Below, piece after piece: positions 47,344 through 52,378 of a DNA stretch of 64,000 bases. The stretch covers positions 1-64,000 of the forward strand of contig JADLHM010000012.1 in assembly GCA_020848745.1 (NCBI GenBank), written 5' to 3'. Both the position numbers and the translations under genes were made by a program. Under the pieces are notes generated by a model, which saw only the letters and a list, made by a program, of their open reading frames with translations, did not search any database and had not been told where the DNA came from. How positions within the stretch are numbered: the first letter of the stretch is position 1; each line of letters starts with the position of its first letter. Source of the DNA: Deltaproteobacteria bacterium. GTDB lineage: Bacteria > Desulfobacterota > Binatia > UTPRO1.

Positions 47344-48351
47344 ATGGGGATTGGGGTTACGAGGCGTGTCGCGGTGGTCAGTGGGGTCTGTGCTGTCCTG
47401 TGGCTCGGATCGCTCCTGACGTTCGTCGCGACGTCGACGAACGCATCGAGATGGACCGAGGAAGACTTCGCCACCCGGAACCCGACTCGTTACCCGGTCA
47501 GCGGATCGCCCGGAGCGGGTGGCACAAGCATCGTCGGTGCCCTCGAGACTTACGTCGTGGAGGAGGGCGACACCTTGCTCGACGTTGGTCGCCATTTCGA
47601 CCTCGGATACAACGAGATGACGTCCGCGAATCCCGGCGTGGACCCTTGGATGCCATCGCCGAAAGAAGTGCTGGTGATCCCTACGGAGTTCGTGCTGCCG
47701 GACGCCCGTCCTGCGGGTGTCATCGTGAACATTCCGGAGATGCGGCTCTACCATTTCCGCGGCGGAACCCTGGTGACCTATCCCGTCGGACTCGGTCGCG
47801 ACGATTGGCGAACGCCGGAGGGAACGTTCAAGATCCGAGGCAAGACCGAGAGCCCCACCTGGGTCATCCCGGAATCGATCCGCGCCGAGCACATCCGTGA
47901 GCGCAACGATCCCCGAACGTTTATCGCGGGCGGCGACCCCGAGAACCCGCTCGGCCAGTATCGTCTGGAATTGACGCTCCCGCTCTACGCACTCCACGGG
48001 TCGAACATGCCCTGGGGTGTCGGCATGCAAGTCAGCCATGGATGCATCCGACTCTACAACGAGGACATCGCGATCCTCTTTCGGGAGGTGACGGTTGGGA
48101 GTCCCGGGGAGTTCCTCTACCAACCCGTCAAGCTGGGCAGTCGCGACGGCGAGATCTTCGTCGAGGTCCACCCGGACATCTACGGGCTCCGAGGCAACCT
48201 GGAAGACGAAGCGAACCGGATCATTGCGCAGCGTGGTTGGATCGATCGCGTCGATCCGGTGCGTCTACACCGCTCGATCCGAGATCAGACTGGTGTTCCC
48301 ACGTCTGTCTCGTACCGGGGAAGACCGGAAACGGCCGCGCCCCAACATTGA
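47344..48351 (+). CDS. LysM L,D-transpeptidase
   Basis: GAGGAG precedes the ATG at 47344. 335 residues: a membrane anchor or signal (VAVVSGVCAVLWLGSLLTFV), a LysM domain (YVVEEGDTLLDVGRHFDLGY, then MTSANPGVDPWMP) and a YkuD domain with ALHGSNMPWGVGMQVSHGCI followed by RLYNEDI, holding the His and Cys of the active site. This ErfK/YbiS-like enzyme attaches proteins to, or cross-links, meso-DAP peptidoglycan. The extended C-terminus after position 48200 (EVHPDIYGLRGNLEDEANRI) is commonly seen in the ErfK group. Confidence 0.9.
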   Translation: MGIGVTRRVAVVSGVCAVLWLGSLLTFVATSTNASRWTEEDFATRNPTRYPVSGSPGAGGTSIVGALETYVVEEGDTLLDVGRHFDLGYNEMTSANPGVDPWMPSPKEVLVIPTEFVLPDARPAGVIVNIPEMRLYHFRGGTLVTYPVGLGRDDWRTPEGTFKIRGKTESPTWVIPESIRAEHIRERNDPRTFIAGGDPENPLGQYRLELTLPLYALHGSNMPWGVGMQVSHGCIRLYNEDIAILFREVTVGSPGEFLYQPVKLGSRDGEIFVEVHPDIYGLRGNLEDEANRIIAQRGWIDRVDPVRLHRSIRDQTGVPTSVSYRGRPETAAPQH

Positions 48352-48370: not shown

Positions 48371-48775
48371 TCACGCTATAGCGTTCTGCAAAGCACCTTC
48401 GTAGTGAACCTCGCTGCGCTGCGAGGCGCGAACCGCGACGGCCCGGCGCCAGCGATCGAGGCCGGAACGCAGATAGTCGGCGTTCATCTCCAGAACGTCG
48501 CAGATGTTCTCGAAGGCAAAGAGCCACGAGCGATCGTTCGACGAGAACCATTCCTTTGCCTCGAGGAAGCATGCCTGCTCACGCGGGTCGCAAGCCGCTG
48601 CGTGCTTTCGGTAGCTGTCGACAGCGTCTTCGAGGACCGCCAGCATCAGACGACGCTCACCCTCTACCGCCCGACCCCGGCGAAAAGCGGCAAAATATTG
48701 ATTCGGCAACAGAATATCCGGCTCGAACAGCCCAGCACCGGTGCCACCCTCTGACTTTTTACCCCTTGCTTGCAT
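48371..48775 (-). CDS. Small uncharacterised protein, paralogue A
   Basis: 134 residues from an ATG at 48775 preceded by AAGGG. The core EPDILLPNQYFAAFRRG, EGERRLMLAVLEDAVDSYRK and LFAFENICDVLEMNADYLRS is strongly similar to the protein at 51258, so the two are paralogues. Predicted helical, with a possible helix-turn-helix-like end (ICDVLEMNADYLRSGLDRWR), so DNA binding is possible. No known family is recognised. It lies downstream of the S24-like gene, separated by two palindromes and a sigma-54-like sequence. Confidence 0.75.
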   Translation of the reverse strand: MQARGKKSEGGTGAGLFEPDILLPNQYFAAFRRGRAVEGERRLMLAVLEDAVDSYRKHAAACDPREQACFLEAKEWFSSNDRSWLFAFENICDVLEMNADYLRSGLDRWRRAVAVRASQRSEVHYEGALQNAIA

Positions 48776-48795
48776 GACCCTTGTCTCCCCTCGAA

Positions 48796-48812
48796 TTGCC
48801 GCGTTGCGGCAA
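48796..48812. promoter_or_regulatory. Perfect 7+3+7 palindrome before paralogue A
   Basis: Arms TTGCCGC and GCGGCAA flank GTT, 21-37 bp before the start codon. It overlaps the downstream half of a sigma-54-like promoter, a position suited to an operator. Confidence 0.5.
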
Positions 48813-48822
48813 ATTACTAGCC
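48807..48822 (-). promoter_or_regulatory. Sigma-54-like promoter candidate of paralogue A
   Basis: On the minus strand the sequence reads GGGCTAGTAATTTGCC, with GG and GC separated by 10 bases and 8 of 12 informative consensus positions matched (TGGCACG-N4-TTGCW). The predicted start of transcription leaves a leader of about 22 bases before the ATG at 48775. Confidence 0.3.
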
Positions 48823-48860
48823 CGTGGGAGAGGGCGTATGAAATGAAAAAGCTTACGATC

Positions 48861-48883
48861 GACAATTAGCAGGGCTAATTGTC
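48861..48883. promoter_or_regulatory. Perfect 10+3+10 inverted repeat over the stop of the S24-like gene
   Basis: Arms GACAATTAGC and GCTAATTGTC enclose AGG and overlap the TAG stop at 48875. On the minus strand a run of five T follows about 8-12 bases later. It could be a weak terminator or, because of its AT-rich perfect symmetry, an operator. Confidence 0.5.
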
Positions 48884-49471
48884 AAGTACGCTGATCTGAA
48901 GCTGTTTACGGACCATTTCCGCCTCATTGCGAAGCGCTCTTCGGAGACGGGGATTGCGCGTCGTGGCTCGGGTCGCTTCGAGCATGCTCAGCTGACTACG
49001 CAGAATCCCTTGTCGGCTAGGAGAGCGAGCGGTCGCGAGAGTGAGAGCATCGTCACCTGAAGGTGGCGCGCCGCAGCGCGGTGGAAATCCCTTACGCCTG
49101 ATGATCCCGACGAAGGTTCCCACGATGTCGCAAGGCGGTTCCATCTCCCGAAGAGCGGAGCCACACTGAAGCGTGGGGCGGCCGGCGACCCTGGCGAGGA
49201 CCAGACCTTCCGGCTCAGGCACGCGCGCGACGTCCACCAGGAGGTAGTCCCCTCGTTGCAGACCGGCACTGCTGAGTGCTTCGCCCTGGACGAGGAACGC
49301 GCGGACGCTCGGGGCGCGATCGGACGCCGTAGTACCGCGTGCAGGCGACAGTCGGACTTCCTCGAGCCCGTCATTGGCGACTAAGACACCTTCGAGCGGA
49401 AGTCGGCGAATTGCTCCCGGTCTGGTCGTCACTCGCACGAAACTAGGTTCCCAGCTTGCGGCTTCGCTCAT
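48875..49471 (-). CDS. S24/LexA-like domain protein lacking the catalytic Ser
   Basis: 198 residues; AGGAGA lies 9 bases upstream of ATG 49471. The middle (FLVQGEALSSAGLQRGDYLL, then VDVARVPEPEGLVLARVAG) matches the S24/S26 protease fold of LexA and UmuD, where the usual G-(D/E)-S-M nucleophile loop is GEAL. Ser is replaced by Ala66 and no clear catalytic Lys follows. There is no N-terminal helix-turn-helix; a helical tail (QLSMLEATRATTRNPRLRRA) follows. It may be a dead sensor/binding module. It sits between gshA and the small paralogue A on one strand. Identification rests on this motif alone. Confidence 0.55.
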   Translation of the reverse strand: MSEAASWEPSFVRVTTRPGAIRRLPLEGVLVANDGLEEVRLSPARGTTASDRAPSVRAFLVQGEALSSAGLQRGDYLLVDVARVPEPEGLVLARVAGRPTLQCGSALREMEPPCDIVGTFVGIIRRKGFPPRCGAPPSGDDALTLATARSPSRQGILRSQLSMLEATRATTRNPRLRRALRNEAEMVRKQLQISVLDN

Positions 49472-49532
49472 TGTCGTGGTTCTCCTACGCTCGACGACAC
49501 TTTAGCGACGGTCCTCGACGTGGCTAGCGCAT

Positions 49533-49547
49533 CGTCAGCGGCTGACG
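49533..49547. promoter_or_regulatory. Perfect 7+1+7 palindrome upstream of the S24-like gene
   Basis: Arms CGTCAGC and GCTGACG around one base, 62-76 bp before the start codon, in the short gap after gshA. A TGATGCG/GATGCG direct repetition flanks it. A dyad in this position is a typical place for a dimeric repressor to bind. Confidence 0.45.
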
Positions 49548-49581
49548 CATCACCGACGCGTCGGCATGGCCGTGGAGGAAC

Positions 49582-50961
49582 CTACTGCGGGAGCCGGTAC
49601 GTTGTGTGCTCGATGAGGCGTGTGACGTCGCGATTCCACGGACCTTCCCAGAGCTCCGCAAGCATCCGTCCGAGAGACTTCCCGTGACGCACCAGCTCTT
49701 CGAGCCGGTCTAGATAGATCCGCTCGTCCTCGCCCTTGGCATCCAACTTGTTCTGTCGGCGCAAGCCCGCTGCGCCGATGGTGACGAGCTCGCGACCCAG
49801 GTCGGCGAGGGCGATCCTCCTGATCCGCGCGTAGAGGCCCTCGCGGTGCGCGTCGCGATAGATCGCCAGCCGCTCCTCCCAGGTCCACGAGCGCACGAGA
49901 TCCCACGCCCCTTCCAGCGAGTCCCGCTCGTAGAGTATCCCCTTGAGCAACGCCGGCAACGCCAGCATCAGTTCCGGCGGCTGGCTGTCCGCGCTCCGCA
50001 CCTCGAGGTATCGCTTCAGCCGAACCTCGGGAAAGAGCGTCGTCAGGTGGAGCGCCCAGTCCTCGAGAGTGGCGCGCTCGCTTCCCATGCCGTTCCGCAC
50101 GTAGTCGCGAAACGTCTGATGCGTCTCCACGTACTCTCCGTTTCGGATGATGAAATACATCGGCACGTCGAGCGCCCATTCGACGTAGTCGTCGATACTC
50201 GCCTCGGGTGAGAATGCGAACCGCATCAGTCCCGAACGCGCGTTGTCAGTATCGGTCCATATGTGACCCCGCAGGGTCATGAAGCCGTTCGTCCTCCCCT
50301 CGGAAAGGGACGAGTTCGCGAACATCGCGGAGATCAAGGGGACGAGCCCCATTGCCACCCGGAATTTTCGCATCGCATCGCGTTCGTCGCCGAAGTCGAA
50401 ATTCGCCTGCACCGTAGCCGTTTGCTTCATCATCTTCTGACCCAGAGTTCCGACGCGCGTCATGTACGGACCCATGATCTCGTACCGCCGTTTGGGCACC
50501 CATTCGATCGCCTCGACCCGGCTGACCGGTTGAATACCGAGGCCGAGGAAAACGATCCCGAGCTCGGCGCCGACCGTGACGATCTCTTTGATGTGCTCGA
50601 TCAGCTCCGCGTGGGCGCAGTGAATACTCGAGCACTGCTCACCACTGAGCTCCAGCTGTCCGCCGGGCTCGACCGTGATGTTCGCATCGCGACCCGTGAG
50701 AGCGATGAGCCGACCACGCTCGCGTTTCGGGATCCACCCGAACCGCTCGGCGAGGCGCTCGAGCACGGTCTCGATGCCGCGCTTTCCGCTGAAGGGGGCT
50801 GCCCAGCCATTCTCCTGAAGGACCCCGACCTTCTCGTACTCCGTGCCGACACGCCAGTCGGCTTCGGGCTTCGCGCCGCTCGCCACATAGCGAATCAACT
50901 GCTCGACGTCTTCGATCGGTTGCTGCGCTGCTGGGTCGCTCCCCGTCGTGAACTCCGACAT
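49582..50961 (-). CDS. gshA: Glutamate-cysteine ligase (plant/proteobacterial GCS2 type)
   Basis: 459 residues with family landmarks RVGTEYEKVGVLQENGWAAP, ITVEPGGQLELSGEQCSSIH and ATVQANFDFGDERDAMRKFR, and GRTNGFMTLRGHIWTDTDN. This plant-type ligase makes gamma-glutamylcysteine from glutamate, cysteine and ATP, the first step of glutathione synthesis. No gshB is next to it. Intact; the N-terminal start at 50961 gives MSEFTTGSDPAAQQPIED. A glutathione-using GST remnant occurs elsewhere in the window. Confidence 0.93.
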   Translation of the reverse strand: MSEFTTGSDPAAQQPIEDVEQLIRYVASGAKPEADWRVGTEYEKVGVLQENGWAAPFSGKRGIETVLERLAERFGWIPKRERGRLIALTGRDANITVEPGGQLELSGEQCSSIHCAHAELIEHIKEIVTVGAELGIVFLGLGIQPVSRVEAIEWVPKRRYEIMGPYMTRVGTLGQKMMKQTATVQANFDFGDERDAMRKFRVAMGLVPLISAMFANSSLSEGRTNGFMTLRGHIWTDTDNARSGLMRFAFSPEASIDDYVEWALDVPMYFIIRNGEYVETHQTFRDYVRNGMGSERATLEDWALHLTTLFPEVRLKRYLEVRSADSQPPELMLALPALLKGILYERDSLEGAWDLVRSWTWEERLAIYRDAHREGLYARIRRIALADLGRELVTIGAAGLRRQNKLDAKGEDERIYLDRLEELVRHGKSLGRMLAELWEGPWNRDVTRLIEHTTYRLPQ

Positions 50962-51180
50962 CGGACGGCGGAAGCTACCAGATCGCCGGGTCGTAGCAAC
51001 GCGTGTACGGCGTGTCTTGGTTGCGGAATAGCCCGGCCCGGAAGCCTCACCGGCTGTCGTGTTTCACCGCATAACGGTCTCGTTTCGATCCAATCTAGGC
51101 CGCCGAGCGACGGCCCATCCGATCAAACCTCCGACATGCGATCGCCGCTACATCGGGATGTTAGCGCGTACGAACCCTGG

Positions 51181-51196
51181 TGGCATGCCAACTGCT
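51181..51196 (+). promoter_or_regulatory. Sigma-54-like promoter of paralogue B
   Basis: TGGCATGCCAACTGCT matches 10 of 12 informative positions of the TGGCACG-N4-TTGCW consensus, with the invariant GG and GC correctly 10 bases apart. It lies 62 bp before the start codon at 51258. Confidence 0.5.
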
Positions 51197-51257
51197 CTCT
51201 CCCGGGCCAGGTTGGGTACACAGCAGCCGGCGTCGCTCAACCGGGGAGGATCGATCG

Positions 51258-51707
51258 ATGGAATTGCGTAGCGCAGTGACGGAAGAGCGAACCGCAACTC
51301 CTCTCGAGCCCGACACGCTCGTCCCGGCTCAATACTTCGATCGGGTCGGCTCGGACGGGGCCTTTCAACCCGAGAAGCGACTCATGCTCGCGGTGCTGGA
51401 GGAAGCGATCGCAACTTTCCAGCGCCACGTGATGTCGGACAACAGGCGCAGCCAACGGTTGGTCGAAGAGGTCGAAAGCTGGACGTCCGGTGCCGAAGCG
51501 GACTGGCCGTTCTCGTTCGAGAACGTATGCGCGGCTTTGAACCTCGAGCCTGAGTACCTTCGTACGGGTATGGCGCGTTGGAAGGCGGCCGAGCTGCACC
51601 GCATCCGACAAGGCAAGCCGACGCTCTACCGCTTTCCGTTTCGCCGCGTGAACGGTCGCCGACACAGCATCACGGGGCCGCGTGAGTACCTGAAGAAATC
51701 GGCCTAG
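51258..51707 (+). CDS. Small uncharacterised protein, paralogue B
   Basis: 149 residues; GGGGAGGA precedes ATG 51258. Core segments EPDTLVPAQYFDRVGSDGAF, EKRLMLAVLEEAIATFQRH and FSFENVCAALNLEPEYLRTG align with the protein at 48371 (same order, same spacing). The extra C-terminus (FPFRRVNGRRHSITGPREYL) is basic. The last helices resemble a helix-turn-helix-like unit. Function unknown. It is encoded opposite to gshA and paralogue A and has its own sigma-54-like promoter. The 296 bp before it contain no other gene. Confidence 0.75.
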   Translation: MELRSAVTEERTATPLEPDTLVPAQYFDRVGSDGAFQPEKRLMLAVLEEAIATFQRHVMSDNRRSQRLVEEVESWTSGAEADWPFSFENVCAALNLEPEYLRTGMARWKAAELHRIRQGKPTLYRFPFRRVNGRRHSITGPREYLKKSA

Positions 51708-51775: not shown

Positions 51776-52030
51776 TCAGTGTCCGAGCGGTGCGGAACTC
51801 GTCGCGTCGTCGAAGAAGACCTCTCCGTCGAAGATCAGCGCCTCGACGACGTTGTTCAGGCGATCAAGGGGAGTCCCGTCCAGCTTGTAGTGCCGGACGC
51901 CCCGCTTCATCGCATCCGACAGCTCCACGAGCAGGAACATCGTCTCGTACGAGCTGCGGAAATCGAGATGCATGTCGCTGAGCAGAGCGGGGCGGGAGTT
52001 CGCGGAAGCGGTGGTGGGTTCGCCGAACAT
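51776..52030 (-). CDS. Small hypothetical protein, 84 aa
   Basis: GAGGAGA about 9 bases before ATG 52030 supports the start. The sequence (SYETMFLLVELSDAMKRGVR, HYKLDGTPLDRLNNVVEALI, FDGEVFFD) suggests a small helical/strand protein. No family is recognised. A sigma-54-like sequence lies at 52081-52096. It converges with paralogue B. Confidence 0.6.
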   Translation of the reverse strand: MFGEPTTASANSRPALLSDMHLDFRSSYETMFLLVELSDAMKRGVRHYKLDGTPLDRLNNVVEALIFDGEVFFDDATSSAPLGH

Positions 52031-52378
52031 GCGTCGGTATCTCCTCTCGACAACGCGGAGTGTGACTACGACGCATGGTGACCAAGTTCCGTGCCATCGG
52101 GCCCCCTTTCTGGTTCGAATCTTCTCGGGAGCGCGGAGCACTGCGGTGGCGACAGCGAACGACGGTGGCCGTCGACGGTGAATCTGCTTGCGATCCAACT
52201 GGTTGCGACTTTTCCCGCCAGCGGGGAAACCCGCATTTTCTAGGGTCGCCGCATTGAGAGTTGCCTGCGCGCGCGCAGCGTCGTTCTCGGAGGATCGCAC
52301 GCCCCTAGAATCGTGCGCACACGCCCGATTCCTCAAAAGACTGCGGCTGCACCCGATCGCGAGATGAAGGAACCGATG
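52031..52378. other. Intergenic stretch with a GC hairpin and a sigma-54-like sequence
   Basis: No coding region is supported in these 348 bases. There is a sigma-54-like element at 52081-52096. There is also a hairpin at about 52211-52229 whose arms TTTCCCGC and GCGGGGAAA pair with one bulge, about 150 bp downstream of the secreted-protein gene that ends at 52379. It might act as that gene's terminator. A TTCGAATC at about 52113 looks like a tRNA T-loop but no stem forms. Confidence 0.4.
52081..52096 (-). promoter_or_regulatory. Sigma-54-like promoter candidate of the 84-aa gene
   Basis: On the minus strand TGGCACGGAACTTGGT matches TGGCACG perfectly and TTG of the -12 element, but the usually invariant C is G. 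It lies about 50 bp before the start codon at 52030. Confidence 0.35.

Follow-up and report, generated by a model that had tools for sequence, protein, structure and literature searches.

The DNA analysed here (the window) is a 64,000-nucleotide stretch of contig JADLHM010000012.1, from a Binatia genome of 4.88 Mb. Two small paralogous proteins of an unnamed family are encoded there: A (48371-48775, minus strand, 134 aa) and B (51258-51707, plus strand, 149 aa). Between them lie, on the minus strand, an S24-like gene (48875-49471), whose product resembles the C-terminal domain of LexA and UmuD, and gshA (49582-50961), encoding a glutamate-cysteine ligase. A gene for an L,D-transpeptidase (LDT) with YkuD and LysM domains (47344-48351, plus strand) converges on A. 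A preliminary description of this region had suggested that A and B, around the S24-like gene and gshA, may form one stress-responsive regulatory circuit involving thiols. The two proteins instead fall into separate groups of their family, and it is A that is regularly linked to gshA.

An unnamed protein family nearly restricted to Binatia

A and B share three conserved blocks in the same order, exactly as first described: EPDILLP in A and EPDTLVP in B, RLMLAVLEDA and RLMLAVLEEA, and FAFENIC and FSFENVC. When the whole genome was searched with B, A was retrieved at 81.6 bits (E = 1.4e-22), together with seven further paralogues, so their resemblance is not due to chance; the genome thus holds nine copies. 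One of the paralogues (G000:C147, L150:6260-6688) lies between surE and an IHF/HU-type gene, which itself comes after a pheT-like gene, all three being on the opposite strand. The family was present in 38 of 38 genomes from the first search for relatives and in all of 118 Binatia genomes, with 1-21 copies per genome. Nearly restricted to this class, it is uncommon in the rest of the phylum: of 198 phylum genomes drawn evenly, 14 carried it, of which seven were Binatia and the other seven had one or two matches each, often weak. Gene calling in the relatives relied on a simple script, which may miss small genes. The locus sets came from two overlapping sources, and the counts cited are those of non-redundant members, among which kin sequences are still counted singly.

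Across 101 member sequences, L43, W76 and C92 are invariant. Compared with Pfam, NCBIfam, PHROGs and PADLOC, these members gave scattered sub-threshold matches only, none of them accepted, and the family profile matched no PDB sequence. Membership in a known family was, therefore, rejected, in agreement with the preliminary description, which could not place the two proteins. A mobile or phage origin was rejected as well, since no relatives were found in the viral contigs, plasmids and phages searched.

A tree built from 116 non-redundant members contains three main supported groups, namely the A-clade and the B-clade, which include A and B of the window, and a C-clade. Judged by this tree, A and B represent two ancient groups of orthologues; their gene partners differ. 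The grouping implies that they parted before the class radiated and that their adjacency does not reflect a tandem duplication. The distance between them is 2-3 kb in genome family f1 and 41-60 kb in f4, f6, f8 and f14, with varying relative orientation. Owing to the separate clades and these distances, the interpretation of A and B as one unit, or as a tandem duplication, was discarded, and a single circuit of A and B around gshA is not supported.

Linkages and control signals of the A-, B- and C-clades

The product of gshA, correctly placed between the paralogues in the preliminary description, contains a GCS2 domain (PF04107, E = 1e-61). It scores 456.6 bits against TIGR01436, slightly below the cut-off of 463.15. 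Its identification as glutamate-cysteine ligase takes into account the glutathione synthase (GSH-S_ATP) encoded elsewhere, which is found in 18 of 19 genomes, the window's own among them. Considering loci with enough flanking sequence, gshA upstream on the same strand and the LDT gene downstream in convergent orientation accompany 18 of the 26 A-clade members, versus none of 27 other members. The link between A and gshA is, therefore, not coincidental, contrary to what had been allowed for. The recurrent order is gshA, an optional S24-like gene, A, and the facing LDT gene, with gshA and A co-oriented in 18 of 18 linked cases. This block is kept in f1, f4, f6, f8 and f14, while the presence of nearby genes such as the S24-like gene, an MFS gene and B varies. 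In such a neighbourhood survey A thus has recurrent partners, whereas B adjoins gshA in f1 only.

All promoter and operator assignments given below are drawn solely from sequence conservation. Three palindromes had been reported, before the S24-like gene, at its stop and before A. All of them exist, but only the dyad that overlaps the S24 stop (48861-48883), with perfect 10-bp arms and a 3-nt spacer (GACAATTAGC-N3-GCTAATTGTC), stands out. For its core, TTAG-N5-CTAA, the 64 kb contain a single occurrence versus 0.04 expected, and the longer core AATTAGC-N3-GCTAATT is found once in the genome, even with up to two mismatches allowed. The two others have 7-bp arms and were dismissed as signals, being at chance level in the window sequence alone (29 inverted repeats of at least 7 bp lie within the same 3.5 kb), although the one just 5' of the ribosome-binding site of A (TTGCCGC-N3-GCGGCAA, 48796-48812) recurs in f1, among close relatives. 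A scan of the region against Rfam found no RNA family.

The dyad belongs to a 36-nt element conserved before A-clade genes, TWAG-N5-CTWA-N15-TTTTTCAT, at 48843-48878 on the minus strand. Searching 58 Binatia genomes with a loose form of this pattern (gap of 12-20) gave 12 places, versus none for the reversed control. Ten of them, spread over nine genomes from f1, f3 and f8, are exactly 36 nt long and are followed by an A-clade gene; the two of other length (34 and 41) are not. Genome G017 of f8 carries two A-clade copies (C230 and C339), each with a complete element. The dyad reads TAAG/CTTA in G004 and TTAG/CTAA or TAAG/CTAA in the others, so its symmetry can survive a base change. The element is retained where the S24-like gene is deleted (G002) and where gshA is unlinked (L046, L069). 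The simplest reading is that it constitutes a candidate operator for A's own gene, the dyad being the probable site. Two other functions were considered and set aside. A terminator appears unlikely, since in most species the stems are rich in A+T and no longer than 4-5 bp. A wider regulon is at odds with the single genomic occurrence of the longer core and with the gshA upstream regions, where TWAG-N5-CTWA was not found.

B is preceded by a different signal. A -24/-12 promoter of the sigma-54 type, TGGCATGCCAACTGCT (51181-51196, plus strand), is predicted there, with GG and GC at the two positions, consensus context and conservation among orthologues. Scores of at least 7.8 of 9.6 were obtained for 16 of 21 B-type genes, versus 2.9% of random 300-mers, and each of the 19 genomes checked, including this one, has rpoN, the gene for sigma-54. 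Two direct repeats GTCNNGTTTC, 21 nt apart (51056-51087, plus strand), are kept before B in f1, where the pair GTNNNRTTTC, spaced by 21-23 nt, lies about 100-130 bp farther upstream of the promoter; these are possible sites for an enhancer-binding protein. Most B-clade members, including B itself, end in the basic tail RFPFRRVNGRRHSI. In f1, f6 and f8, a ParB-type gene and genes of the F0 ATPase are found in the vicinity of B. Its own promoter and neighbours set it apart from the circuit initially proposed. A small protein without a Pfam or NCBIfam match is encoded convergently after B (51776-52336, minus strand) and kept in f1. Several non-B paralogues have -24/-12-like sites too, and two paralogues of this genome, G000:C150 (L151) and G000:C55 (L153), adjoin genes for NtrC-type sigma-54 activators.

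C-clade loci largely adjoin iscS, a gene for an Rrf2 regulator and a lipid A acyltransferase gene. Family members were observed in or beside iron-sulphur (Fe-S) assembly genes at L140, L079, L085, L138 and L149:8800-9240; the latter is the window genome's own paralogue G000:C47, placed behind hscB-hscA. These settings resemble isc operons controlled by Rrf2/IscR, but the family itself matches no Rrf2 and is extra to the isc genes. A conserved leader, CTCTTCTCTTTCGAGTGCGGCATGA followed later by GCAGGCCGCACYC, was noticed about 55-90 nt 5' of the gene at L062, L067, L070, L097, L034 and other C-clade loci. It would be the third conserved control signal in the family and, as GAGTGCGGC can pair with GCCGCACTC, may form an RNA hairpin.

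The S24-like gene, a decaying relative of LexA

Taken alone, the S24-like protein of the window remains below the Pfam cut-off for PF00717 (16.2 versus 23.3 bits). Its syntenic orthologues reach 85.9 and 73.6 bits over the full domain length, and a profile made from these orthologues retrieves solved LexA from the PDB at E = 2.4e-18, and UmuD too. Foldseek matched the model of the window protein to the LexA C-domain and UmuD' (probability 1.00, E about 1e-3). Sequence and structure both identify the product of 48875-49471 as having the Peptidase S24 fold. The catalytic Ser-Lys dyad is gone. The missing nucleophile had already been pointed out, Ser being replaced by Ala (G-E-A-L), and the general base is lost as well, Lys being replaced by Gln (T-L-Q-C). 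Copies from G003, f4 and f14 no longer have the Ser. This residue is retained, together with Lys, at L048 and, as part of GxSM and TVKR, respectively, at L124 (G004) and L146 (G037), which also keep a LexA-like cleavage region (LGT-AAG).

The protein differs from LexA and UmuD in other respects. No Pfam domain was found before the S24 part of its 198 residues, and the N-terminal winged helix of LexA is absent. Its gene adjoins gshA and A rather than a polymerase gene. A helical pair is added at residues 153-197 (48881-49015, minus strand); it is confidently modelled, is no part of LexA, and carries a pattern, NPRLRRALRNEA, common to most of the orthologues. A separate, much stronger S24/LexA-type match is located elsewhere in the genome, at G000:C54.

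The S24-like gene is found between gshA and A in f1, f4, f8 and f14, separated from A by an MFS gene in f8. In the same-genus sister G002 it has disappeared, leaving a gshA-A gap of 214 nt, and in G016, from f6, there is no room for it between the two genes. Together with its catalytic death in the window, these absences identify it as accessory: it decays, whereas gshA and A persist. The partnership initially suggested thus holds to the extent that the gene recurs at this place in several families, but it is dispensable.

A comparable layout is offered by Acinetobacter, in which UmuDAb is an S24 repressor and DdrR a genus-specific corepressor (PMC11332147). There too, an S24-type gene stands beside that of a small, lineage-restricted protein, DdrR being involved in the regulation of its partner; the likeness is one of layout only. 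UmuDAb, however, binds DNA with the assistance of DdrR, whereas the S24-like protein lacks a DNA-binding domain and can be dispensed with, and the small protein here belongs to a large family. Within the wider superfamily, SipA is a known case of a protein that has lost the Ser-Lys dyad and acquired another role (PMC12984324).

A probable regulator family and its alternatives

In the AlphaFold model, whose core is confident, helices span residues 36-57, 64-78, 88-94 and 99-133. The structure prediction called for earlier yields, at 88-112, a short helix, a four-residue turn and a helix, coinciding with the pattern FxNICxxLGxxPxYLRxGLxRW, which speaks weakly for a helix-turn-helix. At residues 86-111 the family profile aligns with the helix-turn-helix of sigma region 4 with a score of 21.1; none of 150 column shuffles scored above 20.3. 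The weak, scattered library matches of the members are mostly to helix-turn-helix models (HTH_29, PadR, HTH_Crp_2, HTH_23). This fold is the leading but unproven assignment for the family. The likeness to the sigma-70 region 4/LuxR-type domain (PF08281) is confined to that segment and scores below any membership threshold, and the invariant W76 and C92, as well as the conserved N-terminal blocks, are peculiar to the unnamed family.

The reading favoured here, tentatively and with slightly less than an even chance of being right, is that of a multi-copy, nearly Binatia-only family of small helical, probably helix-turn-helix, regulators, whose orthologous groups each tend to have their own locus and control signal, A being tied to gshA. 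The family would have split into these groups before the class radiated. A would be a DNA-binding regulator that, in the simplest case, regulates itself by binding, as a dimer, to the dyad ahead of its gene, and it might adjust a thiol-related function linked to gshA and glutathione. The S24-like protein may be a former accessory input or partner, catalytically complete in some relatives and decayed in the window. Production of B would depend on the action of sigma-54 and an enhancer-binding protein at its promoter, and B would serve a different task outside the circuit of A. The location of members beside gshA, iscS/Rrf2 and hscBA suggests a thiol/Fe-S theme.

Several observations weigh against this reading. 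The hhalign probability for the sigma region 4 helix-turn-helix is 12.7%, and no solved fold matches the AlphaFold model (best E = 0.64). The dyad is only a candidate site, to which binding of A is inferred. Many A-clade genes, in f4 and f6, have no exact A element, gshA and LDT are absent at 8 of 26 A-clade loci, and a thiol role for LDT is not obvious. The thiol/Fe-S theme is not seen at about a third of the A-clade loci and at many other members.

Some of these points would be accommodated if the family were a small helical adaptor or modulator that serves neighbouring proteins (GshA, IscS/HscBA) and does not bind DNA, the dyad being bound by an unrelated regulator. Neither A nor B matches a known helix-turn-helix family above cut-off or any PDB sequence, and several copies are encoded inside or next to clusters of enzyme genes. 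Such a role is nevertheless unlikely, given the helix-turn-helix-like pattern with its aligned profile, the predominance of helix-turn-helix models among the weak matches, and the presence of B and several other copies in other contexts. An improbable explanation, in turn, is that A owes its linkage to gshA and LDT to inherited gene order, with no functional tie, and is a general regulator that acts elsewhere in the chromosome. It is consistent with the convergent LDT gene, which is not co-transcribed with A, with the upstream element of A, which makes shared regulation with gshA unnecessary, and with the dyad-free gshA upstream regions. It fits poorly with a block that has persisted in five genome families amid varying neighbours, and with the invariable co-orientation of gshA and A.

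It is even harder to see A and the S24-like protein as a split LexA, with A as the DNA-binding half and the S24-like protein as a dimerising, cleavable half acting in trans, in a DNA-damage switch that would be locked or being lost in the window. In f1, f4 and f14 the S24-like gene immediately precedes A, on the same strand, the copies of G004 and G037 retain Ser, Lys and a cleavage region like that of LexA, and UmuDAb with DdrR provides an analogue in layout (PMC11332147). However, the A-family and S24 profiles have no sequence relation, A persists without the S24-like gene in G002 and G016, no Ser remains in the copies of the window, G003, f4 and f14, and the genome has its separate, strong S24/LexA-type protein. 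The idea is considered highly improbable. A broader conjecture, which has little chance of being correct, would retain part of it within the favoured reading of a regulator family: the class would possess its own expanded set of regulators, each group wired to one locus (gshA, iscS/Rrf2 or hscBA) with its own signal, and at gshA the regulator would have been paired in trans with a LexA half lacking a DNA-binding domain. The protease half of this split repressor would have died repeatedly, whereas its DNA-binding half would have been kept together with the operator.

As the family is found in every sampled Binatia genome and is unnamed in all of the libraries tried, up to about 20 probable regulators per genome would currently be unannotated, in a class known mainly from metagenomes. 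The A and B groups carry ready-made test sites, namely the 36-nt element and the predicted sigma-54 promoter, respectively. The A locus, moreover, constitutes a natural series from an intact to a catalytically dead to a deleted LexA-like gene beside a constant partner, which may show how such switches get lost.

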